From positions 8,071 to 43,036 of the forward strand of contig JAADHK010000087.1 of the NCBI GenBank assembly GCA_013151835.1: DNA of 34,966 nucleotides, read 5' to 3'. Positions 2,327 to 14,864 of this stretch are shown here, piece by piece. The notes beneath the pieces were generated by a model. It had not been told where the DNA came from. It saw nothing but the letters and a program-made list of their open reading frames with translations, and ran no database searches. Position 1 is the stretch's first letter. Every line of letters begins with the position of its first letter. The position numbers were made by a program, and so were the translations under genes. This stretch comes from Deltaproteobacteria bacterium. Its GTDB lineage: Bacteria; Desulfobacterota; Desulfobacteria; Desulfobacterales; Desulfosalsimonadaceae.

Positions 2327-4129
2327 ATGACACGCACTGCACGATTGAAAAACAAAATCTTAAACATTCTGGATCAGGCGCCACCGCTAAAGGACATCCT
2401 ATGTTCGGGCGGGACGCCGGCATCCAAGCGATTAAAAATTCAGCATTTTTTAGGAGTCCGGCTGCGGGAACCCTTTGAAGAGGATTCTTCAATCCCACCC
2501 CTGGAATGGATTATCGCCCGCGACGCCATACGGGTTTTCAGAAATATTATATCCGCCAGAAGCGAGCGGATAGCGGAGTTTAGTTTTCTTAACTACCTCA
2601 ATGACCTGGTGCAGCGGGAGAATTATCGGGACATGCCTCTGCCCTCAAAAGGATTTATGGCCGAACTGGAGTACCTTTTGCGGGGCATCATGGGAACAGC
2701 CGGTATTTATAAAGAAAAATTTCCGGTTTTTCAAAAACATGAAGGCCGGCGGGCAGCGGTACTGCGCTCAAAAGACCTTTCGAAGATGATGCGGACTGCC
2801 CAAAAATTTATTGACCTCTATTCCGGCGGCCTGGACGACGATGTAATCCGGCGGCGGAGCAGGAACAAGGCCCGGATTCTGAAATATTTTAATGCCACGG
2901 ACCTGGAATGGGAAAAATGGAAATGGCACACCCGCCATATCGTTCGGGATGCCGACGCCCTGGCGGCTCTGGTACGGCTGACGGATGAAGAATATCAGGC
3001 GGTAAAACTCGCCCGGCAATACCGGATCCCTTTCGGCATCACGCCCTATTATCTTTCGCTTATGGATTATAAAACAAGTGGCAGGCGGGATGCGGCCGTG
3101 CGCGCCCAGGTGATCCCGACTCTTTCATACGTGACCCGGATGAAAGAGTTGCGCGACCGCAGGGAGCCGTCAATGGATTTCATGCTGGAGCGGGATACTT
3201 CGCCCATTGAAGGCATCACCCGGCGGTATCCCGGCATCGTTATCTTAAAACCCGTAATGACCTGCCCCCAGATATGCGTCTATTGTCAGCGGAACTGGGA
3301 AATCGAGGATGCCTGCCGACCGGATGCCGTCCTTGGAGATGCCGCCATGGACAAGGCTCTCCAGTGGATCGCGGATACGCCCGAGATCAGTGAAGTCCTT
3401 ATTACCGGAGGCGATCCCCTTCTCATGTCCAATGCGAAAATTGAGCACCTCCTTTTCAGGCTGTCGCGGATCGGCCATGTCGACCGTATACGTATCGGAA
3501 CCCGTATGCCCGTCACATTGCCCCAGCGCATTACGGATGCACTGGTGCGCGACATCAATCATTTTAATAATCCCGGCAAGCGGGAAGTGATTATTGTCAC
3601 GCATTTTGAACATCCCTACGAGATAACGCCCCAGGCCCTCAATGCCGTACAAAAATTCCGGCGTTACGGCATGAATGTTTACAATCAGCAGGTTTTTACC
3701 TTTTATAATTCACGGAAATTCGAGTCCGTGGCATTGAGAAAAAAGCTCCGGCTGATAGGCGTCACGCCTTATTACACTTTTAACACAAAAGGCAAGGAAG
3801 AAACCCGGGACTACCAGGTGCCCCTGGTCCGGCTGCTCCAGGAGCAGCAGGAAGAAGCACGCCTCATGCCCGGAACCCTGCGGACCGATGAAATCGTCTT
3901 TAACGTACCCGGTCTCGGCAAGAATTATTTGAGAGCCAGGCAGCACCATGACATTATATCCATCCTGCCCGATGGTCGGCGGGTTTACGAATTTCACCCC
4001 TGGGAAAAAAAGCTGGAGCTGACGGACACCTATGTATACACGGATGTTTCCATTTATGACTATATGCAGCGGCTCAAAGCGGTTGGCGAGAATTTGTCGA
4101 ACTATAAAACTATTTGGTATTATTATTGA
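2327..4129 (+). CDS. KamA-family radical SAM aminomutase, predicted glutamate 2,3-aminomutase-like
   Basis: About 600 residues. The lysine 2,3-aminomutase core starts near residue 190 (WEKWKWHTRHIV, then ITPYYLSL); the N-terminal 190 residues are an extension I do not recognise. The radical SAM cluster motif is C313-x3-C317-x2-C320, with the carboxylate-binding arginine equivalent R322 two residues later and GGDPL for SAM. The PLP lysine is K532 in NVPGLGK. Lysine aminomutase binds the side-chain amino group with two aspartates (D293 and D330 in the clostridial enzyme); here they align with K488 (FNTKGK) and N526 (VFNVPG), the exchange reported for glutamate 2,3-aminomutase. The predicted product is therefore beta-glutamate, a possible compatible solute. 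No ablB-type acetyltransferase is adjacent, which argues mildly against beta-lysine. The start at 2327 has AGAGGAC before it; the in-frame ATG at 2309 is an alternative. The stop codon is the first triplet of a repeat tip. Confidence 0.85.
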   Translation: MTRTARLKNKILNILDQAPPLKDILCSGGTPASKRLKIQHFLGVRLREPFEEDSSIPPLEWIIARDAIRVFRNIISARSERIAEFSFLNYLNDLVQRENYRDMPLPSKGFMAELEYLLRGIMGTAGIYKEKFPVFQKHEGRRAAVLRSKDLSKMMRTAQKFIDLYSGGLDDDVIRRRSRNKARILKYFNATDLEWEKWKWHTRHIVRDADALAALVRLTDEEYQAVKLARQYRIPFGITPYYLSLMDYKTSGRRDAAVRAQVIPTLSYVTRMKELRDRREPSMDFMLERDTSPIEGITRRYPGIVILKPVMTCPQICVYCQRNWEIEDACRPDAVLGDAAMDKALQWIADTPEISEVLITGGDPLLMSNAKIEHLLFRLSRIGHVDRIRIGTRMPVTLPQRITDALVRDINHFNNPGKREVIIVTHFEHPYEITPQALNAVQKFRRYGMNVYNQQVFTFYNSRKFESVALRKKLRLIGVTPYYTFNTKGKEETRDYQVPLVRLLQEQQEEARLMPGTLRTDEIVFNVPGLGKNYLRARQHHDIISILPDGRRVYEFHPWEKKLELTDTYVYTDVSIYDYMQRLKAVGENLSNYKTIWYYY

Positions 4130-4148
4130 TGGCTTCGTAGAAAATCGG
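4128..4148. repeat. Isolated tip of the palindromic repeat family
   Basis: GATGGCTTCGTAGAAAATCGG starts inside the stop codon of the aminomutase gene and resembles the tips at 14680 and 31429. The matching other end is not obvious before the complete element at 4210, so this may be a degenerate or nested copy. Confidence 0.5.
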
Positions 4149-4209
4149 AAATCAGGTTCATTTTATCACAAAAAGAGGTTCATTGCCCCGATTTAAACTC
4201 GGTCTTAAG

Positions 4210-4332
4210 GGCTCGTAAAAAGCTCCGTATGCAAGGCGCGCGACCAGCGAAAGGGCGAAGGCGTACTTTTCGTACGTTGAGGCCTTTCGCTGGCCGCGCA
4301 ACACCGCAGACGGATTTTTTACGAGTCCGTCA
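4210..4332. repeat. Long palindromic repeat element, copy A
   Basis: Imperfect inverted repeat of about 120 bases. The left arm begins GCTCGTAAAAAGCTCCGTA and carries GCAAGGCGCGCG; the right arm ends ACGGATTTTTTACGAGTCCG. The inner stem CCAGCGAAAGG pairs perfectly with CCTTTCGCTGG, and the loop holds a second small palindrome, CGTACTTTTCGTACG. On the minus strand the right tip begins TGACGGACTCG, and its first three bases are the stop codon of the MBL gene. It lies between two convergent genes, so it could act as a bidirectional transcription end. Confidence 0.85.
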
Positions 4333-4995
4333 AAGGTAGGATTCGATAAACCGGCGAACCTCGTCCTTACCCCGTATGATGCCGAAATGCCCCTCGCAAA
4401 GGATATCCGCGTTTAAGGCCATCATCTTTTTCAATGATCTTATGTAATCATTTTGATCCGATTTAAGCACCGGGTGGAGGGGGCCGTGGACATCCTGGCC
4501 AAATAGAACCTTTTTACCGTCTGATTCAAATTCAAAGACGACCGATCCCGGGGAATGGCCGGGCACGTGAATGGCCGTTATCACCCGGCCGTTTAAGTCT
4601 ATTTCTTCCCTGGCCGCCTCAAACTTTATGTCGACCTTAAATGGTTTAATGGTCCTTCCATACCAGGTTGCCGCAGTAGCCATATTATCTCCTGATTCCA
4701 GAAAAACCGCATCAAGCTTGTGGGCGGCAACCCTGCAATCGAGAATATCGATCAGCGCCCTGGCGCCTCCGGTATGGTCTATGTGGCAGTGAGTAATGAG
4801 CAGGTATTTGATATTTTCGCAGATGACGCCGCACTCGCGGACATTATCAAGAAGGCGGGCGGGATCGCCCCCGCATCCGGCATCGATTAAGGCGGCAGAA
4901 TCGTCCACCCGGACAAGATAAACCGCAGCGTCATCATTTGAGGTGAAATACGGCCCCCCGATCTGGAAGACTTCCGACGTGATCTTTTCGTGCAT
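4330..4995 (-). CDS. MBL-fold metallo-hydrolase
   Basis: 221 residues with a complete metallo-beta-lactamase metal-site set: H69-x-H71-x-D73-H74 in THCHIDHTGG, a histidine near residue 145 in HVPGHSPGS, an aspartate in FGQDVHG and a last histidine in CEGHFG. This is the glyoxalase II/general hydrolase branch; the substrate cannot be predicted. A purine-rich GAGGGGG precedes the ATG. It is the last gene of a minus-strand set with the PII-like protein (10-base gap) and the EIIA protein, so it may be an effector whose expression follows that regulatory pair. Its stop codon is formed by the tip of repeat copy A. Confidence 0.88.
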   Translation of the reverse strand: MHEKITSEVFQIGGPYFTSNDDAAVYLVRVDDSAALIDAGCGGDPARLLDNVRECGVICENIKYLLITHCHIDHTGGARALIDILDCRVAAHKLDAVFLESGDNMATAATWYGRTIKPFKVDIKFEAAREEIDLNGRVITAIHVPGHSPGSVVFEFESDGKKVLFGQDVHGPLHPVLKSDQNDYIRSLKKMMALNADILCEGHFGIIRGKDEVRRFIESYL

Positions 4996-5005
4996 CCGTC
5001 CCCCC

Positions 5006-5350
5006 TCAAAAATTCTTGTCCGCTCCCAGATGACCGAACCTCAATACCGGCGTAACACAATATATCCCCTGGGGCGTGCCTGAAGTTCTGCTGCAGATGC
5101 TCTCCAGCAGGGCTATAGCCCGGTCCAGGAGCAGATTGTCTTCAATGACCGCGAAGATGGTCTTGCTGTGGCGCGCGCCCCCGGAAGTCAGGCTCCTAAG
5201 ACCGGCGAATATGGGAACGTGCTGGGTGACAAGCTGGAGGGCGCCCGTTGTCTCAATAACCGTTGCGCCGGAAACGCCCAAGTCAATCCAGGCCGTAATC
5301 AGGTCGTCCAACAGGTCTTCATCGTCTATAACAACAAATAGTAAATGCAT
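5006..5350 (-). CDS. Small PII-like (ferredoxin-fold) putative regulatory protein
   Basis: About 114 residues from the ATG at 5350 (MHLLFVVIDDEDLLDD), which has GGGCGGATCA before it; an in-frame ATG at 5365 is the alternative. The pattern of a short beta strand, acidic DDEDLLDDL helix, GVSGATVIET strand and a second half with KTIFAVIEDNLLLD resembles small PII-like proteins related to the P-II nitrogen regulator fold, which bind nucleotides and report to a partner. The T-loop sequence of true GlnB/GlnK is not present. It sits 22 bases after the EIIA gene and just before the MBL hydrolase. The family call is by pattern memory only; the function is unknown. Confidence 0.6.
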   Translation of the reverse strand: MHLLFVVIDDEDLLDDLITAWIDLGVSGATVIETTGALQLVTQHVPIFAGLRSLTSGGARHSKTIFAVIEDNLLLDRAIALLESICSRTSGTPQGIYCVTPVLRFGHLGADKNF

Positions 5351-5372
5351 TGATCCGCCCGTCATCAGCCGG

Positions 5373-5843
5373 TCAGGAAAAAGCGCCGGGGTCTTCGAGG
5401 CCCCTGATGGCTTTTAAAAGTGTTTCGGCATCGGTTGCCTGCCTGGCGGTGCTTACAAAGTCCTCCTGTTTGCAAAGCCTTGCCACCCTTGCCAGCAGAC
5501 GAACATGCGAATTCGGATCGATTGCGGGAAAAATCAGGGCCAGGATTATGTCCACAAGACGGTTGTCGAGTGAATCAAAGTCGACAGGCTCAATAAGCCG
5601 GATGAAGATGATCCCGGGCACGTCTGTCTCATCGCTCGTGGCGTGCGGAAAGGCCAGGCGCTCGCCCACGCCGGTGCTCATGGTGTTTTCCCGTTCCACG
5701 AGCCCCGAAAAAATGGCGCCCCTGTTGCTTACGATCCGGCTTTTTACCGCAGCATCGGCAACCTTTAAAAGAATATCGCGCTTGTTTGCACAAGCGATAT
5801 CGAGGAATATATTTTCGGGTTTCAGATATTTGGAAAGTATCAT
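5373..5843 (-). CDS. PTS EIIA type-2 (fructose/mannitol/Ntr-type) domain protein
   Basis: 156 residues from the ATG at 5843, chosen because CCAAGAGGG lies before it; the frame stays open to a TTG at 5894. The EIIA type-2 signature is clear: STGVGERLAFPHAT with the phosphoacceptor histidine H67. Such domains take phosphate from HPr. No EIIB, EIIC, EI or HPr is in the window, so a regulatory role like that of PtsN/EIIA-Ntr is more likely than sugar transport. First gene of a three-gene minus-strand unit (EIIA, PII-like, MBL), with a promoter at 5932-5960 and a palindromic operator at 5983-5996. Confidence 0.87.
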   Translation of the reverse strand: MILSKYLKPENIFLDIACANKRDILLKVADAAVKSRIVSNRGAIFSGLVERENTMSTGVGERLAFPHATSDETDVPGIIFIRLIEPVDFDSLDNRLVDIILALIFPAIDPNSHVRLLARVARLCKQEDFVSTARQATDAETLLKAIRGLEDPGAFS

Positions 5844-7884: not shown

Positions 7885-9210
7885 ATGGGAAAAAAACGCG
7901 TTGCCATCGTCAGATATGAGAAACCCTATGATTCGGTGAAAAAGGCCGTGGAAATGTCGGACGGACTCTCTGAAATGCCGTCAAACGCAAAGGTTTTTAT
8001 CAAGCCCAACATTGTATTCTGGACAAAGGCGGTCGCCTTTCCCAAGTGGGGGGTGATCACCACATCCAGGGTGATCGAGGACATGGTGGTGATCTTAAAA
8101 GAACACGGGATCGATGATATCACCATCGGCGAGGGCGTGGTGGCCGCGCCAAAGGATATTGAAACTCCGGCCCACGCGTTTGCCACCCTCGGCTACGAGA
8201 CCCTGCACAAGCGCTACGGCGTGAAATATATCAATGTCATGCAGCGGCCCTTTGAGGAGATTGATCTGGGAGACGGGATCAGCCTCAAGTTCAACACCGA
8301 TATCATGAACAGCGATTTCGTGGTGGACCTTCCGGCCATGAAATCCCATAACCAGACCGTGGTGAGCCTGGGGATCAAAAATCTCAAGGGAACGATAAAC
8401 ATCCCGTCGCGCAAGAAGTGCCACAATGCCGATATCCAAAGGGATCTCCATTACCACGTGGCCCGGCTTGCGGACGGCATGCCACCGATCTTCACGCTCA
8501 TAGACGGCATTTACTCCCTTGAGCGGGGGCCGGGATTTGACGGCAGGATGCGCAGGAGCAATATCCTGATCGCGTCTTCGGACATTATTGCCGCCGACAT
8601 GGTGGGCGCAAACGTCCTTGGATACCGGGCCGACGAGGTCCCCCACCTCGTCCACGCCGCAAAAAACCACGCAAGACCCACGGATCTTTCGGACATCGAG
8701 GTGGTGGGCGAAAAGATCGAAGATGTCGCGTCGGTGCATGAATACGATTTCGCATACTCCGACGAAAAAGACGGCAACATGCCGGCACCTCTTGCAAAAC
8801 AGGGAATCAAGGGACTTTTCTACCGCAAGTACGATACGACCATGTGCACCTATTGTTCGGGCTTAAACGGGCTCGTCCTTTCTGCGATACGGTTTGCGTG
8901 GAAGGGAGAGCCCTGGGACGGGGTCGAGATACTCACCGGAAAACGTCTGAAGCCGACGCCGGGCATGAAAAAGACGATCCTGCTGGGACGGTGCATGTAC
9001 AACGCCAATAAGGACAACCCCGACATAAACGAGATGATCGCGATAAAAGGCTGCCCGCCGAATCCGAAAGATATCGTCGATGCATTGAACAAGGCCGGAA
9101 TCGCGGCAGACCACGGGCTGTTCGATCAGGCCGACACACTGCCCGGGTTTTTCATGGACCGGTACAAGGACAAGCCTGAATTCGACGAATCGTTCTTCCG
9201 GGTGGAGTAA
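7885..9210 (+). CDS. DUF362 domain-containing protein
   Basis: 441 residues with the DUF362 pattern: KVFIKPNIV near residue 37, TIGEG, then SDFVVDLPAMKSH and LGIKNLKGTIN, and ADMVGANVLGY. Cysteines cluster in the C-terminal third (CTYC, LLGRCMYNAN, KGCPPNP), which may bind iron-sulfur or another metal; there is no clear CxxCxxC ferredoxin motif. The biochemical function of this subgroup is not established, though such genes often sit among fatty-acid and aromatic-acid genes in sulfate reducers (family knowledge). AAGGAG lies eight bases before the ATG. The last 85 bases overlap the end of the convergent phosphonopyruvate decarboxylase frame. Confidence 0.85.
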   Translation: MGKKRVAIVRYEKPYDSVKKAVEMSDGLSEMPSNAKVFIKPNIVFWTKAVAFPKWGVITTSRVIEDMVVILKEHGIDDITIGEGVVAAPKDIETPAHAFATLGYETLHKRYGVKYINVMQRPFEEIDLGDGISLKFNTDIMNSDFVVDLPAMKSHNQTVVSLGIKNLKGTINIPSRKKCHNADIQRDLHYHVARLADGMPPIFTLIDGIYSLERGPGFDGRMRRSNILIASSDIIAADMVGANVLGYRADEVPHLVHAAKNHARPTDLSDIEVVGEKIEDVASVHEYDFAYSDEKDGNMPAPLAKQGIKGLFYRKYDTTMCTYCSGLNGLVLSAIRFAWKGEPWDGVEILTGKRLKPTPGMKKTILLGRCMYNANKDNPDINEMIAIKGCPPNPKDIVDALNKAGIAADHGLFDQADTLPGFFMDRYKDKPEFDESFFRVE

Positions 9211-10343
9211 AGAAGTTTATCCCCGCCCGTGCCGACCCGTTTCATAAAATGTTCCCTGATTTCCCGGCAGGAATACTCGTCGGATATCCTGCAGCGGCCC
9301 TTGCCTTCAACGCCGTTGATTAAAATATGCACGAACGCCGGGCCCGGGGATTTTAATAAAGAGGTGAACCCGCTTTTCAAATCATCTTCATTGTCTACCC
9401 GGCAGGTGTTCAAATAGCCACACCCCCTGGCCACTGCGCATAGGTCGATACTGCCGGAGACTGTTGGCTGGCCGCCGGTTGAAGCATAACAGCCATTATC
9501 CAGAACAGCGTGTATCAACCGCGAACCGCCAGCCTCACCAACGGAGGCCATTGCCCCCAGGTGCATTAGACAACCGCCGTCGCCATCCAGGACAATGGCC
9601 TTCGAGTGATCATCAAGAGCCCTCCCGATCCCCAGGGCTACCGGGAGGGCATGCCCCATAGAGCCGAGCATGTAAAAAGGCGGATTTTTATTTCCTTCTT
9701 TTTTCCCGGACAGATTATGAAAGACCTCGCGGCTGATAAACCCGTTTGTGGTGACGAAACAAGCCTCATCACCGCATGCGCTCATGATAATGTCCACGGC
9801 CCTGCACCTGGTCATGGCGGAACACGAACCCGGGAAAAGAGGCGCTGACTTTTCCACCAGGCCCTTTTTCAGCACCAGGGCCACAGGAGAGCGGCTCTTT
9901 TTGACGAGATCAACAACCGCACCGATTTCATCCTGATAATTGCCTTGCGTTAAAACACGATAAGGGACATCAAAGGTTTTGAGTATCCGCTCCAGTTCGC
10001 CGCCCATGACATAATGTTCGGGCGCGTCGTTAATTCCAGGTTCCCCCCGCCAGGATATAAGGTAGACAGCCGGAATTTTGTATATCTGGTTTAAAGAAGT
10101 GAGACAGTTTAAGGTATTGCAAAACCCGGAGTTCTGCATGAGCACCATGGGGATTTGCCCGGTTGCAAGGTAAGACCCCGCAGCAATCCCCATGGCCACA
10201 GCCTCGTTTACCGGGTTTATGACCTCGCATGACGGGTCGTTTGAAAGCCCGGATATTACCGGTGCCAGGATTGAACAGGGCACCTCGACATAGGGGCCGA
10301 TTTCATGTTTCTTAAATTCTCTTATTAAAAGTTCCGCTTTCAT
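9126..10343 (-). CDS. Phosphonopyruvate decarboxylase (thiamine-diphosphate enzyme)
   Basis: 405 residues. The N-terminal half has the conserved glutamate region NPVNEAVAMGIAAG; the C-terminal half has the thiamine diphosphate and Mg motif GDGGCLM with LDNGCYASTGG downstream. The layout fits phosphonopyruvate decarboxylase (Ppd/AepY/Fom2), which turns phosphonopyruvate into phosphonoacetaldehyde and CO2, the step that makes PEP mutase practical. Sulfopyruvate decarboxylase is the nearest alternative, but the PEP mutase gene eight bases upstream decides for phosphonate. The homologous part seems to end near FMKRV (about residue 370); the last 35 residues run antisense into the 3' end of the DUF362 gene and look like read-through into foreign sequence. 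Last gene of the operon. Confidence 0.9.
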   Translation of the reverse strand: MKAELLIREFKKHEIGPYVEVPCSILAPVISGLSNDPSCEVINPVNEAVAMGIAAGSYLATGQIPMVLMQNSGFCNTLNCLTSLNQIYKIPAVYLISWRGEPGINDAPEHYVMGGELERILKTFDVPYRVLTQGNYQDEIGAVVDLVKKSRSPVALVLKKGLVEKSAPLFPGSCSAMTRCRAVDIIMSACGDEACFVTTNGFISREVFHNLSGKKEGNKNPPFYMLGSMGHALPVALGIGRALDDHSKAIVLDGDGGCLMHLGAMASVGEAGGSRLIHAVLDNGCYASTGGQPTVSGSIDLCAVARGCGYLNTCRVDNEDDLKSGFTSLLKSPGPAFVHILINGVEGKGRCRISDEYSCREIREHFMKRVGTGGDKLLYSTRKNDSSNSGLSLYRSMKNPGSVSA

Positions 10344-10351
10344 ATCTTTCT

Positions 10352-11962
10352 TTAAGAAAAGACCGCGCAGGCGTTTTTATAGTCCTCAAAGGTATGGATT
10401 TCCATCCACCCGCCGGTCACCTCGTAAACAAGCACCTCATGGTTTTTCTCCACCAGGCATTGAATAAAATCGGCAAACGATATTGTCTCCCCAAGGTTCG
10501 ATGCCTTATATTCATCGACAAGAAGGCGCATCCCCTTTTTCGATAAAAGGGCAAGCCCGACAAACTCGCAATCCCCTTCCTGTTCGGATATATCATCGCC
10601 TATCTTTTTTACGATATTCTTCCGGTTGGTATCGATCGTGCGGTGGCCATCCTGAAAGGGATTATCGGTGACAATAAGCTCAAGCTTCTTATTGCGGTAG
10701 CTTGTCTTTTTATAGCTACGGTCGCCCACCAGGATAATATCGGCTTCCTTTTTGAGAAGATTTTCCAACAAGCAGCAGTCGATGATGATGTCTGAATAGA
10801 GGATCAGGTTCTTATCCGCGATTTCATCAACACCCTGCATCACCGAATACATAATTCCGGTTGTTTTAAATTCCCTGTTATCCACGACTCCGGCACCGTC
10901 TATGATCACCCGAGCGGCCTGATAACCCGCAACCACGCTTACATCCTGAACGCCTGCTATATTAAGCGTCTCTATGTTTCGCTGGAGCAGGGATTTTCCG
11001 TTTATATCGAGCATGCCAACCGGCCGGTCCTCCACAAGGGAGCGCAGGGAATCGTCAACCTTATACCCTGCTGCGGGTATGATGGCCTTTACACTCCCGA
11101 GTCCGGTTTTAAGAAACTTCTTTTCGTTATGCTTCATGGCGTACATGCCCTGCAGCCGGAAGACCTCGTCCATGGAAACGATTTTATCGTCTATGCCTGA
11201 TTTCCCATGTTTTTCAATCCGGTTTAACACCGATTGCATGCTTTTAATCGCCGCCCGCAGACCGTGATTTGCGTAGATGACTATATTTATGCCGAGCGCT
11301 TCCATGTCGGCTTCATCGATATGAAAGGTAGTGGGACAGATGAGCAGCGGGGCTTTTTTGTCCCAGTCTCTGCAGAACTCGATAATCTCGTCCGGCCTAT
11401 CTGATTTGGAGTGGATGAAGATGGCGTCCGCCCCGGCATCGACGTAGGCATGCGCCCTTTTTAATGCCTCCCCATGGCCCCAGCCCGCGATTAACGCCTC
11501 GACCCGGGCAAAAACCATGAACGCATCCGTATTTCCGGCATTTTTCGCGGCCATTATCTTGCCCACGAACTCCGCAATCGGAGCCAGATCCTGCCGTCCC
11601 GAGATAAAACTGTTGACCTTGGGAAACTTCTTGTCTTCAATACACACGGCATTGACACCGGCTGCTTCAAACCTTTTTACCATATGCATGACATTGTTGG
11701 AGTTCCCAAAACCGGTGTCACAATCGGCGATCACCGGTATGGAGACTGCGTGCGCCATCTCGGATGAGGCGTTTAAAAAATCGGTCATGGTCAGGATATT
11801 GGCATCCGGCACCGCATGAGAGGTTGATATTTCAAGACCCGACGCCCAAACCCCCTCAAACCCGGCCTCTTCCACCAGTTTGGCGGTAAGCCCGTTATGC
11901 GCTCCAACGATCCTGATCAACCGGCCCTGTCCGATATGTTCTTTAAGTGTATTTCTGTTCAT
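10352..11962 (-). CDS. PEP phosphomutase fused to a PntC-like nucleotidyltransferase
   Basis: About 536 residues from the ATG at 11962 (MNRNTLKEHI), 19 bases after the stop of the radical SAM gene; the frame is open further upstream but inside that gene. Residues 1-290 form the isocitrate-lyase-like PEP mutase: GVWASGLEISTSHAVPDAN, IADCDTGFGN, and the diagnostic EDKKFPKVNS loop. PEP mutase makes the C-P bond of phosphonopyruvate. Residues from about 300 form a sugar-phosphate-type nucleotidyltransferase (AIIPAAG, MLDINGKSLLQR, YSDIIID, CEFVGLALL, GGWMEIHTFEDY) like PntC, which activates 2-aminoethylphosphonate with CTP, and the fusion type is known from phosphonate gene clusters. The signature is unusual: no GxGxR follows AAG, and the PK lysine is replaced in DRPVGML. 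The nucleotide and substrate are inferred. Confidence 0.9.
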   Translation of the reverse strand: MNRNTLKEHIGQGRLIRIVGAHNGLTAKLVEEAGFEGVWASGLEISTSHAVPDANILTMTDFLNASSEMAHAVSIPVIADCDTGFGNSNNVMHMVKRFEAAGVNAVCIEDKKFPKVNSFISGRQDLAPIAEFVGKIMAAKNAGNTDAFMVFARVEALIAGWGHGEALKRAHAYVDAGADAIFIHSKSDRPDEIIEFCRDWDKKAPLLICPTTFHIDEADMEALGINIVIYANHGLRAAIKSMQSVLNRIEKHGKSGIDDKIVSMDEVFRLQGMYAMKHNEKKFLKTGLGSVKAIIPAAGYKVDDSLRSLVEDRPVGMLDINGKSLLQRNIETLNIAGVQDVSVVAGYQAARVIIDGAGVVDNREFKTTGIMYSVMQGVDEIADKNLILYSDIIIDCCLLENLLKKEADIILVGDRSYKKTSYRNKKLELIVTDNPFQDGHRTIDTNRKNIVKKIGDDISEQEGDCEFVGLALLSKKGMRLLVDEYKASNLGETISFADFIQCLVEKNHEVLVYEVTGGWMEIHTFEDYKNACAVFS

Positions 11963-11981
11963 GGCATCAACCTGGAGCCCC

Positions 11982-13190
11982 CTATTTCTTGCCAGTGCGC
12001 CAGCATGCGGGATCGCCTTCAAAAAAGGCCTCCGGGTCCAATTTGAAAGCATCGTATTCCCCTTTATCGTTGAAGGCGGAATCATCATATGCACGGGTCC
12101 TGCATCCGTAACACTTCTCCTCGCTGCTTAAAGGGCAATTTTCCGGCGAGCATTTATTGTTTTCATGAAGTTCGGAATAGATATTCCTGAATTTCTTCAC
12201 CTTGTCCGAACTAACGATGTCTTTAAACGAATCCTTGCGTATATCGCCGAGCGCCCAATGATCCGGGGCTTCCGAGCAAGGCACCACGATTCCGTCGGCC
12301 CTCACATGCACCCCGGCAAGATGACGTGAGCAGGCCTTGTTTTCTACCCAGGGACTTTCCGCCTTCCAGTGAATGCCAAACTCCGAACCGTCTATGGCGG
12401 CCAGCCTTTCAAACAGGTCTTTAATGTCTGCCGAGTTTAAGGTCCCGCCGGATGGTTTGCCGCATAACATGATTGAATGGTTTTTCTTTGCGGTCCCATG
12501 AACATGCACCGGTATCACAAAGGGTTTGAAATTGTTTTTACGGGACCATCGGAAGACGTCGGGTACCCCGTCGTAATTCAGCTTTGTCACAACCGTATTT
12601 GTGGAAATCCGGGGCATGTCCTCGCGGCCGTAACCGACTTCCAGCAGGTTGTAAAACCCCTGCATCATTTTTTTTGAACCGCCCGGTGTATCCAAAAGCT
12701 TGTCCTGAATATCCGTGTCCATGGAATCGAGCTTGCAGCACAGGGCAATCCCCATATCAGCCAGCTTTTTAGCCTTTTTTTTGGTTATCATGGCCACATC
12801 GGTGAAGCTTACCATGTCCAGGGGCAGATTTTGCCCGGCAAATAAATCCCTGGCATAACCGACAAGGTGAAAAAATGCGCTTTCTTCCTTGCCCTTCCAA
12901 TCCGGCGGGCTCCAGACCAGGGGCTCTCCCCCCTGCATGTTGATGACTTTAACCCCGAGCCCGGCCGATTCATCAACGATATTTTTCGCTTCCGCCATTG
13001 TCAACTGATTGGTCCTTCTCGGCCCACCCTCGGCATAGCAGTATAAGCAATGAAAATTGCACTTCTGGGTAACCATAATATCAACGGATATAAGCTCGGT
13101 CCCCTGCGCCTTCAGCCTCTCGATAATATCCCTGGTCAAACCCGCCATTCCCGGAAACAGGGTTATATTTTCCGTATTTCTTTCATCCAT
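11982..13190 (-). CDS. Radical SAM/SPASM-domain enzyme of the phosphonate operon
   Basis: 402 residues from the ATG at 13190, which has AAGAGGG before it; the frame extends to a TTG at 13211. The radical SAM cluster is C44-x3-C48-x2-C51 (CNFHCLYC), with GGEPL for SAM binding. The C-terminal third has SPASM-type cysteines for auxiliary clusters: ACSRHLAG, VVPCSEAP, and KCSPENCPLSSEEKCYGC. SPASM proteins include peptide maturases and small-molecule enzymes. No precursor peptide gene is visible nearby, and there is no B12-binding domain, so a P-methylase of the PhpK type is unlikely. It sits between the transporter and the PEP mutase, only 13 and 19 bases from them, so its substrate is probably a phosphonate or the molecule that receives it. 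Exact reaction unknown. Confidence 0.85.
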   Translation of the reverse strand: MDERNTENITLFPGMAGLTRDIIERLKAQGTELISVDIMVTQKCNFHCLYCYAEGGPRRTNQLTMAEAKNIVDESAGLGVKVINMQGGEPLVWSPPDWKGKEESAFFHLVGYARDLFAGQNLPLDMVSFTDVAMITKKKAKKLADMGIALCCKLDSMDTDIQDKLLDTPGGSKKMMQGFYNLLEVGYGREDMPRISTNTVVTKLNYDGVPDVFRWSRKNNFKPFVIPVHVHGTAKKNHSIMLCGKPSGGTLNSADIKDLFERLAAIDGSEFGIHWKAESPWVENKACSRHLAGVHVRADGIVVPCSEAPDHWALGDIRKDSFKDIVSSDKVKKFRNIYSELHENNKCSPENCPLSSEEKCYGCRTRAYDDSAFNDKGEYDAFKLDPEAFFEGDPACWRTGKK

Positions 13191-13203
13191 TGTTAAAGCC
13201 CTC

Positions 13204-14079
13204 TTAACCAAAAGCGGTTATTAAAAAAATACCACAAAAAATAATTAATGAACCCACAAACCTGACCTTCCCGTATTTTTCATCAAGAAACCTGATACCA
13301 TACAACACGCCAAAAACAACACTTATCTGCCGCAAAGAGACAATATAGGCAACCTTGGAAATACGAAACGCATACAATATCAAGATATAAGAGGAAAACT
13401 CAAGTATGGCCGCAAGGGTTATCCGGTACTTGTCCCTTGCCAATATCTCAAAATACCTGCCGCGCCTTTCTTTTAAAAATAAAAAATAAATCAAAAATAA
13501 AAATCCGGAAAAAGCGAACATCAGATAAAAGAACAAAACCGGGTGCAGCATCAACACCCCCTTTTTATCGACAATAGCATAACAGGCCGAGGAGAAGGCA
13601 GTCAAAACCGCAACCACCATAACCTTAGTATCGATATTGCGAAACATTTGCTTAAAAAAAGAGAAAGACAAGGTTTTCTGATGAATGATCAGCACACCGG
13701 CCATGACGATAATAACACCAATAGCCGCCGTCAACGAAGGGATTTCCTTTAAAAAAACAAACCCCATTAAAAGCACGAATATCGGCGACGACCTCACAAT
13801 CGGGTATGTCAGGGACATGTCCGCCAATTCATAAGTCCTGCATAAAAAAACCTGATAGAAAAAATGCGCAAAAGCGGAGAGGATAACAAAAAACCATCCT
13901 GAAAGGTCAATCGAACTTACAGGATATAAGATTAATATAAAGCTGAATAATACGGTATAGATAAGATGTATATTTAAATAGAAGACAACCTTGTCGTCGC
14001 TTTTTTTTAAAAGCATATTCCAGAGGGGATGTATGATTCCCGAGAGGATTACCAGTATAAAGCTTACCTTTGTTATCAT
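13204..14079 (-). CDS. EamA/DMT-superfamily transporter of the phosphonate operon
   Basis: 291 residues, about ten hydrophobic helices in two repeats of the EamA fold (for example IIHPLWNMLLKKS near residue 15, YPIVRSSPIFVLL near 92, FSSACYAIVDKKG at the start of the second half, SLRQISVVFGVLYG near 250). DMT transporters move small metabolites or act as lipid-carrier flippases; the substrate cannot be read. The gene is richer in A and T than its neighbours, with several A/T runs, which hints at transfer. It is the first gene of the operon; a consensus -35 lies at 14160-14165. AGGA stands nine bases before the ATG. Export of a phosphonate, or flipping of a phosphonate-decorated lipid, are the likely roles by context. 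Confidence 0.85.
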   Translation of the reverse strand: MITKVSFILVILSGIIHPLWNMLLKKSDDKVVFYLNIHLIYTVLFSFILILYPVSSIDLSGWFFVILSAFAHFFYQVFLCRTYELADMSLTYPIVRSSPIFVLLMGFVFLKEIPSLTAAIGVIIVMAGVLIIHQKTLSFSFFKQMFRNIDTKVMVVAVLTAFSSACYAIVDKKGVLMLHPVLFFYLMFAFSGFLFLIYFLFLKERRGRYFEILARDKYRITLAAILEFSSYILILYAFRISKVAYIVSLRQISVVFGVLYGIRFLDEKYGKVRFVGSLIIFCGIFLITAFG

Positions 14080-14137
14080 GCCGGGTGGTCCTGTTCATAG
14101 GTGTTAACTGACCGTCTCAAAATACCCTTATAAAAAC

Positions 14138-14165
14138 ATATTGCATGAATCCACCCATGTGTCAA
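14138..14165 (-). promoter_or_regulatory. Promoter of the phosphonate operon
   Basis: On the minus strand a consensus TTGACA (14160-14165), a 16-base spacer and CAATAT (14138-14143); TATGTT at 14135-14140 with 19 bases is an alternative -10. Transcription would start near 14130, about 50 bases before the transporter ATG. Confidence 0.5.
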
Positions 14166-14384
14166 CGCGGAAAATCATTTAATATTACAATGTGTTATTC
14201 TGTGTATCGCGGCCGTTTCCGGTCTTGATTCAAGGGACTGATAAGACGGGGGTACAATATCAAAAATCACCAACCACGCCCATAGGACGTGGTATGATGA
14301 AACCCCCTCGAAGGGGGCAAAAGACATCGTTTTTCTTGTAGATCATATCTAAACGTCAGGAACATAGTCTTCCTGAAAGGCTAT

Positions 14385-14511
14385 GAACATCGAACGTTCA
14401 ACATCGAATTTTGAATAAGGTATTTTGTATATTCTATAAAGTATAAATTTAACAGAGCGAAGCGATATCATTATTCGATGTTCAACGTTGGACGTTCGAT
14501 GTTGGGCGTTC
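14385..14511. repeat. Inverted repeat with AACATCGAA units
   Basis: The left arm (14385-14409) has two direct AACATCGAA units around CGTTC. The right arm (14473-14511) carries the reverse complement TTCGATGTT twice. The best 19-base pairing has two mismatches by eye. An A+T-rich spacer of about 60 bases lies between the arms. No transposase is present. Confidence 0.7.
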
Positions 14512-14679
14512 AAAAAATGCATTATTATACAGGTATGGCATATATTTATTGTCGCCGGAACGGTAGAACCTCATGGGGTCGCACGGGCATAGCCCGTAGT
14601 TTAATTAAAAGCAATTAATTCTTTTGAGTTTTCTTGACCGACAATACCCCATCTGCTATTCATTTTAATACCCAATCTT

Positions 14680-14849
14680 GATGGCGTCGTAAAAAGTCCC
14701 ATCTACTGCGTTGTAGCGGGTCGCGAAATGCTCGGAATACTATATGTATGCCTCCGCTTTCGCGACACGCGACACCACTACGCCTTGTATATGGAACTTT
14801 CTACTTAGCCATCTTTACGGGGGTGCCTGACTTTTTACGAGATCATCAA
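14680..14849. repeat. Long palindromic repeat element, copy C
   Basis: Begins GATGGCGTCGTAAAAAGTCC and ends GACTTTTTACGAGATCATC. The inner stem GTCGCGAAA pairs with TTTCGCGAC. Its first 42 bases are identical, inverted, to the first 42 bases of the window. It lies directly upstream of pckA, which has its own ribosome site just after the element, so the pckA promoter is either inside the element or upstream of it. Confidence 0.8.
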
Positions 14850-14864
14850 TCTTAAGGAGGAAGG

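Follow-up and report, generated by a model that had tools for sequence, protein, structure and literature searches.

The four-gene operon

A stretch of 34,966 nucleotides from a Deltaproteobacteria bacterium (GCA_013151835.1, contig JAADHK010000087.1; the whole stretch is called the window below, and its genome G000) carries four consecutive open reading frames (ORFs) at 9126–14079, all on the minus strand and in the order EamA, SPASM, PepM and Ppd. Two of them encode the putative enzymes that lead to phosphonoacetaldehyde, and a radical S-adenosylmethionine (SAM) enzyme with a SPASM domain takes the place of the aminotransferase or dehydrogenase of known clusters. A preliminary description of the window had read these genes as a phosphonate operon, and the ORFs with their Pfam and NCBIfam matches bear this out, apart from one gene start.

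The first gene (13204..14079) encodes an EamA-type transporter of the drug/metabolite transporter (DMT) superfamily (Pfam EamA, 82 bits, two repeats). Its best named family is TIGR03340 (phn_DUF6, "phosphonate utilization associated"), which likewise comprises EamA-type membrane proteins; the window protein reaches only half the curated cut-off (144.5 bits against 288.15), and the family name refers to utilization of phosphonates, not synthesis. The second gene (11982..13190) encodes the radical SAM/SPASM enzyme, the candidate phosphonoacetaldehyde-processing enzyme, with Pfam Radical_SAM and SPASM domains both above cut-off. Its start was placed at ATG 13190 (the ORF listing begins at TTG 13211). 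The pepM gene (10352–11962) joins a phosphoenolpyruvate (PEP) mutase domain (11093..11962; PEP_mutase, 196 bits) to a C-terminal MobA/LicC-like nucleotidyltransferase domain (10352..11092; NTP_transf_3); its start was corrected to ATG 11962, which matches the relatives, since the listed GTG 12094 overlaps the SPASM gene. The mutase domain matches PDB 5unc (E=5.5e-97) and scores 308 bits against NCBIfam PEP_mutase (TIGR02320), slightly below the cut-off of 319.6. PepM also resembles phosphonopyruvate hydrolase, and the motif that separates the two, EDKxxxxxNS, is intact (EDKKFPKVNS) and kept in all seven SPASM loci described below. The last gene, ppd (9126..10343), encodes a single-chain protein with TPP_enzyme_N and TPP_enzyme_C domains that matches nearly the whole Ppyr-DeCO2ase model (TIGR03297) at 308.4 bits. 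This is just below the curated cut-off (312.5), and Ppd is assigned as a probable phosphonopyruvate decarboxylase, dependent on thiamine pyrophosphate, on homology and context.

The upstream intergenic region (14080..14864) contains no stand-alone nucleotidyltransferase gene. The preliminary description had placed a consensus -35 element there, and the hexamer TTGACA is present on the minus strand (14165–14160). However, no acceptable -10 element accompanies it and promoter-like sites upstream are not in excess (12, against 8.7 ± 2.9 in shuffled sequences), so the promoter is unproven; consensus promoters and terminators across the region likewise occur at shuffle level only.

Linkage of the SPASM enzyme to phosphonate genes

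A scan of an 84,980-genome collection returned four close relatives of the SPASM enzyme (60–69% identity), in two Chloroflexi and two Omnitrophota metagenome-assembled genomes. Whole-genome searches then added one copy in genome G104 (L063, 71%) and two in G089 (L064 and L065, about 43–45%). The orthologue is rare: it was found in 1 of 395 genomes from the phylum to which the window belongs, in 4 of 384 from Omnitrophota and in 1 of 400 from Chloroflexota. Co-occurrence with pepM had been defined beforehand as a test, and the pepM–nucleotidyltransferase fusion and ppd adjoin all seven SPASM orthologues with readable flanks, across three phyla (the window, L005, L006, L007, L008, L063 and L065; L064, at the edge of its contig, is undecided). 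The order EamA–SPASM–PepM–Ppd is kept in L005 and L007 (Chloroflexota) and in L008 and L063 (Omnitrophota), and L006 keeps all the genes with pepM–ppd about 6 kb upstream. Because it recurs in Chloroflexota and Omnitrophota, the arrangement is not due to chance.

Six of the seven readable loci form a close group that also retains the EamA gene, which adjoins SPASM in each of the five loci outside the window. Within this group conservation is highest in SPASM among the proteins that the operon encodes: identities to the window proteins are 66–70% for SPASM, 55–71% for EamA, 50–67% for PepM and 51–55% for Ppd. In a maximum-likelihood tree the seven aligned SPASM orthologues (L064 included, L008 left out for its masked stretches) form one clade with support of 100/100, apart from 24 relatives at 26–32% identity. 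No pepM was found near these distant homologues in the loci examined, and where neighbours were read they were mostly ketosynthase or AMP-ligase genes. The pepM linkage, the single clade and the highest conservation in the operon make a passenger role for SPASM unlikely. A relative characterized in an unrelated pathway would have undercut the link proposed in the preliminary description; no characterized close relative was found.

A sister SPASM family (L066–L082), in Omnitrophota and the window's phylum, lies mostly beside genes for a PaaK-like AMP ligase, a ketosynthase and further radical SAM enzymes. Matches of a broad SPASM profile in one Chloroflexota order (G1236, G1234 and G1246) were rejected as orthologues: the best that could be aligned by BLAST is 25% identical, and pepM is missing from the stretch read in all three.

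A proposed third fate for phosphonoacetaldehyde

The clusters compared show two fates of phosphonoacetaldehyde besides the SPASM type: amination to 2-aminoethylphosphonate (AEP) and reduction to 2-hydroxyethylphosphonate (HEP). The operon of the window has no aminotransferase and no alcohol dehydrogenase, as had been noted earlier, and neither an AEP transaminase nor a phosphonate-type iron-dependent alcohol dehydrogenase (Fe-ADH) occurs near SPASM in any of the seven readable loci. For comparison, 21 Omnitrophota genomes with PepM-type matches were taken, and neighbourhoods were read in those without SPASM. All nine readable pepM–ppd loci of this kind carry one of the two enzymes: an AEP transaminase in L106, L113, L117 and L119, and a phosphonate-type Fe-ADH in L108, L111, L120, L121 and L122 (L118, cut by a contig end, is outside the count). 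The contrast of 0/7 with 9/9 gives a Fisher p of about 9e-5 if the loci are taken as independent, which phylogenetically they are not. Thus, because loci with SPASM lack both enzymes while loci without it have one of them, SPASM is supported as the mark of a third fate of phosphonoacetaldehyde; this absence pattern is the main evidence, and it is correlative.

One of the comparison loci, the AEP-type cluster L106, also encodes a PhyH dioxygenase and a radical SAM enzyme of the B12 type near pepM (L106:12646-15161), which suggests further tailoring of the phosphonate there.

The absence extends beyond the loci. An AEP pathway elsewhere in the genome would have spoken against the proposed role of SPASM, and no true PhnW was found genome-wide in the five SPASM genomes tested. 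In G000 the highest score against the PhnW model, 40.7 bits, belongs to a NifS-like protein, and all 14 control genomes have matches to this model too; the class V transaminases of G060–G063 (172–228 bits) score higher to BhcA, that of G060 being followed by serA. No match to the phosphonate Fe-ADH model at E 1e-20 was found in four of the seven SPASM genomes (G060, G061, G062 and G089), and the three Fe-ADHs that match it in G000 all score higher to other alcohol dehydrogenase families.

Several points besides the non-independence of the loci weigh against a third fate. The contigs of L005, L007 and L065 are short, and missing genes may lie outside them. The three generic Fe-ADHs of G000 could act on phosphonoacetaldehyde in trans, and so could an unlinked class III aminotransferase beside an intact LicC-like nucleotidyltransferase gene. 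These enzymes form the basis of a rival explanation, in which the AEP or HEP pathway is completed in trans and SPASM later modifies AEP, HEP, their cytidine monophosphate (CMP) esters or the decorated lipid or glycan. The resemblance of the SPASM radical core to viperin, an enzyme acting on cytidine triphosphate, and to BlsE of blasticidin biosynthesis would suit such a late step. However, no SPASM locus contains a phosphonate-type transaminase or reductase and none scores above the curated cut-off anywhere in the genomes tested, and the four genomes without an Fe-ADH match also argue against it. This explanation is judged unlikely, though it is the strongest of the alternatives. Lastly, the solved structures closest to SPASM are mostly maturases of ribosomally synthesized and post-translationally modified peptides (RiPPs) and anSME, so that a peptide or protein could be the substrate.

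The SPASM enzyme

The window enzyme has the CX3CX2C motif of radical SAM enzymes (C44/48/51) and seven C-terminal cysteines (C287, 305, 347, 352, 360, 363 and 396). It scores far below the cut-off of every NCBIfam radical SAM family (best NirJ2, 73.6 against 500). Its AlphaFold2 (AF2) model (pLDDT 88, pTM 0.89) has a SPASM fold whose top structural matches are CteB (Z 26.8), anSME (25.5) and SkfB (25.2), with SuiB and ChlB also among the best and BlsE, PqqE and viperin near Z 20. The fold and the auxiliary-cluster cysteines are shared with anSME, BtrN, CteB and SkfB. In contrast, identity to anSME, CteB and SkfB is 16–21% and to BtrN (4m7t; Z 15.7) 19%, the gene context is different and no peptide-recognition domain is visible. 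The substrate cannot be read from the modelled fold.

The best structural matches (CteB, SkfB, anSME, SuiB and ChlB) are what would be expected if SPASM modified a peptide or protein, as a RiPP-like maturase or activator, with phosphonate linked to it only through attachment to that peptide or protein. In the model, however, only about 30 residues, partly disordered, stand before the radical SAM core, apparently too few for a peptide-recognition domain, although some maturases have none, and the protein falls far below every peptide-maturase cut-off. No convincing precursor gene was seen either: the small ORFs of the window's upstream region and of the SPASM–PepM gap of L063, the intergenic regions checked, are chance-like. 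With its short N-terminus and no precursor gene nearby, the enzyme looks unlike a RiPP maturase, and a peptide or protein substrate appears improbable.

Radical SAM chemistry on phosphonates has a precedent in the fosfomycin pathway, in which Fom3 tailors a phosphonate. Fom3 is a B12 radical SAM enzyme that acts on cytidylylated HEP; it carries a B12 domain but lacks a SPASM domain. The window enzyme differs in that Pfam finds no B12-binding domain in it, which agrees, as does the lack of a neighbouring precursor peptide, with the preliminary description.

Fused and stand-alone nucleotidyltransferases

The nucleotidyltransferase domain fused to PepM had been read as PntC, and a working PntC is not supported by its sequence. 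In an alignment with stand-alone nucleotidyltransferases and LicC/PntC, the window domain has other residues in place of the GxGxR Arg, the PK Lys and the E-I-D Asp (AAGYKVDDSL...DRPVGML; WMEIH), that is, the NTP-binding Arg and Lys and the metal-site Asp. The same three residues, the Asp changed to His or Gln, are lost in all 13 EDK-type fusions sampled. The Glu of E-I-D is kept; in our numbering it corresponds to LicC Glu216, which has been named as metal-coordinating (Rice et al., 2019; PMC6697681). The fused domain is thus probably catalytically dead, and it may serve as a scaffold or regulatory domain. Decay specific to the SPASM type was considered and rejected: decayed fusions were read in the window, L005–L008, L063, L065 and L106–L111, which include EDK-type fusions of AEP- and HEP-type clusters. 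The published survey counts PepM–nucleotidyltransferase fusions as evidence for nucleotidyl activation (PMC6697681), a count on which the degenerate domain bears. In another set of PepM-like fusions (L112–L117 and L119), EDN or EDx...CS replaces EDK...NS (a reading based on six of these fusions, the L119 copy being incomplete at the motif) and the fused PK Lys is kept, possibly reflecting a different activity.

In five relatives (L005, L006, L007, L008 and L063) the gene immediately upstream of EamA encodes a stand-alone nucleotidyltransferase in which the PK Lys and the E-I-D motif are retained; in L006 and L063 a CDP-alcohol phosphotransferase gene precedes it. L063 lies within a surface-glycan cluster, which also holds a short pyruvate-kinase-like gene (4569-5558) and a gene for a sulfatase-superfamily protein (2354-4579). 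G000 has no orthologue of the stand-alone enzyme. The only other nucleotidyltransferase match in this genome is the intact LicC-like gene already mentioned, which is unlinked to the operon and forms, with the CobD-like and class III aminotransferase genes that follow it, the stretch L155:8927-12311 on contig C41. Its orthologues occur in several relatives where the scan found no SPASM orthologue, which counts against completion of the pathway in trans. Since the fused domain is degenerate and a stand-alone orthologue is missing, CMP activation in G000 would be either in trans or absent.

The LicB choline importer is a DMT-type transporter. By analogy, the target of EamA and SPASM could be an acceptor, either imported or from the cell itself, instead of the phosphonate, in a LicA-B-C-like scheme with EamA in place of LicB, and an unmodified phosphonate would be joined to an unusual acceptor made by SPASM. 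This would fit L006, where a CDP-alcohol transferase, the nucleotidyltransferase, EamA and SPASM are grouped about 6 kb from pepM–ppd, and a Lic-type logic has been proposed for Pnt clusters (PMC6697681). However, the cluster has no other converting enzyme, so phosphonoacetaldehyde, a reactive aldehyde, would be left as the end phosphonate; this scheme is given a low probability.

The proposed pathway and known systems

The locus as a whole is best explained by a horizontally acquired operon in which SPASM replaces the aminotransferase or Fe-ADH on phosphonoacetaldehyde (probability roughly 0.5). On strong homology, PepM would convert PEP to phosphonopyruvate and Ppd would decarboxylate this to phosphonoacetaldehyde. 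SPASM may then convert phosphonoacetaldehyde or a close derivative by radical chemistry, standing in for the aminotransferase that gives AEP or the dehydrogenase that gives HEP. The most economical reaction might be of the anSME/BtrN kind, with auxiliary clusters assisting a two-electron oxidation or bond formation, here on a small molecule, and conceivably yielding a non-aminated phosphonate. As gene neighbours in most relatives suggest, the stand-alone nucleotidyltransferase would make the CMP ester and the CDP-alcohol phosphotransferase would attach the phosphonate to a lipid or glycan; EamA may transport this product or its carrier through the membrane, its cargo being a guess, with small phosphonate, precursor and lipid carrier all conceivable. 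Of the earlier proposal that SPASM makes an unusual phosphonate, the core gains from the loci without either known phosphonoacetaldehyde-processing enzyme, while a working PntC is not supported. The product is probably a phosphonate that differs in kind from those described so far, and the fuller claim of a third branch, in which SPASM turns phosphonoacetaldehyde directly into a new lipid- or glycan-decorating phosphonate in anaerobes of at least three phyla, is put slightly short of even odds.

Known clusters share parts of this gene set. Pnt clusters (Rice et al., 2019; PMC6697681) likewise have Ppd, a PepM fused to a PF12804 domain and surface-glycan neighbours, and their LicC/PntC-like stand-alone nucleotidyltransferase is present in the relatives; in contrast, the window lacks an AEP transaminase, has a degenerate fused nucleotidyltransferase and adds the radical SAM/SPASM and EamA genes. 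The word "radical" is absent from the main text of that study. The HEP branch (PepM–Ppd–Fe-ADH), seen in Omnitrophota L108, L111 and L120–L122, has the same first two enzymes, whereas the window has SPASM in place of the Fe-ADH. The open literature, which excludes most subscription journals, gave no description of a pepM and SPASM gene set and nothing on EamA with aminoethylphosphonate; of the papers retrieved on radical SAM enzymes and phosphonoacetaldehyde, none concerns this gene set by title or abstract. If correct, the proposal adds to amination and reduction a third fate with a dedicated radical SAM enzyme, and it predicts unknown C–P compounds in bacteria that are mostly uncultured and probably anaerobic. 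With so small and self-contained a set of genes, the proposal can be tested by experiment.

Origin of the operon

The operon was probably acquired horizontally as a unit, because the neighbouring 3HCDH–DUF362 pair is kept in family relatives without the operon, the window SPASM, EamA and PepM are closest to those of one Omnitrophota locus and the SPASM tree mixes phyla. The last 85 bp of the ppd reading frame (9126–9210) run into the 3' end of the DUF362 gene, which is convergent with it, and Ppd has a tail of about 30 amino acids that, in a comparison of tails, is not present in its relatives; an extra tail running into DUF362 fits a junction at this point.

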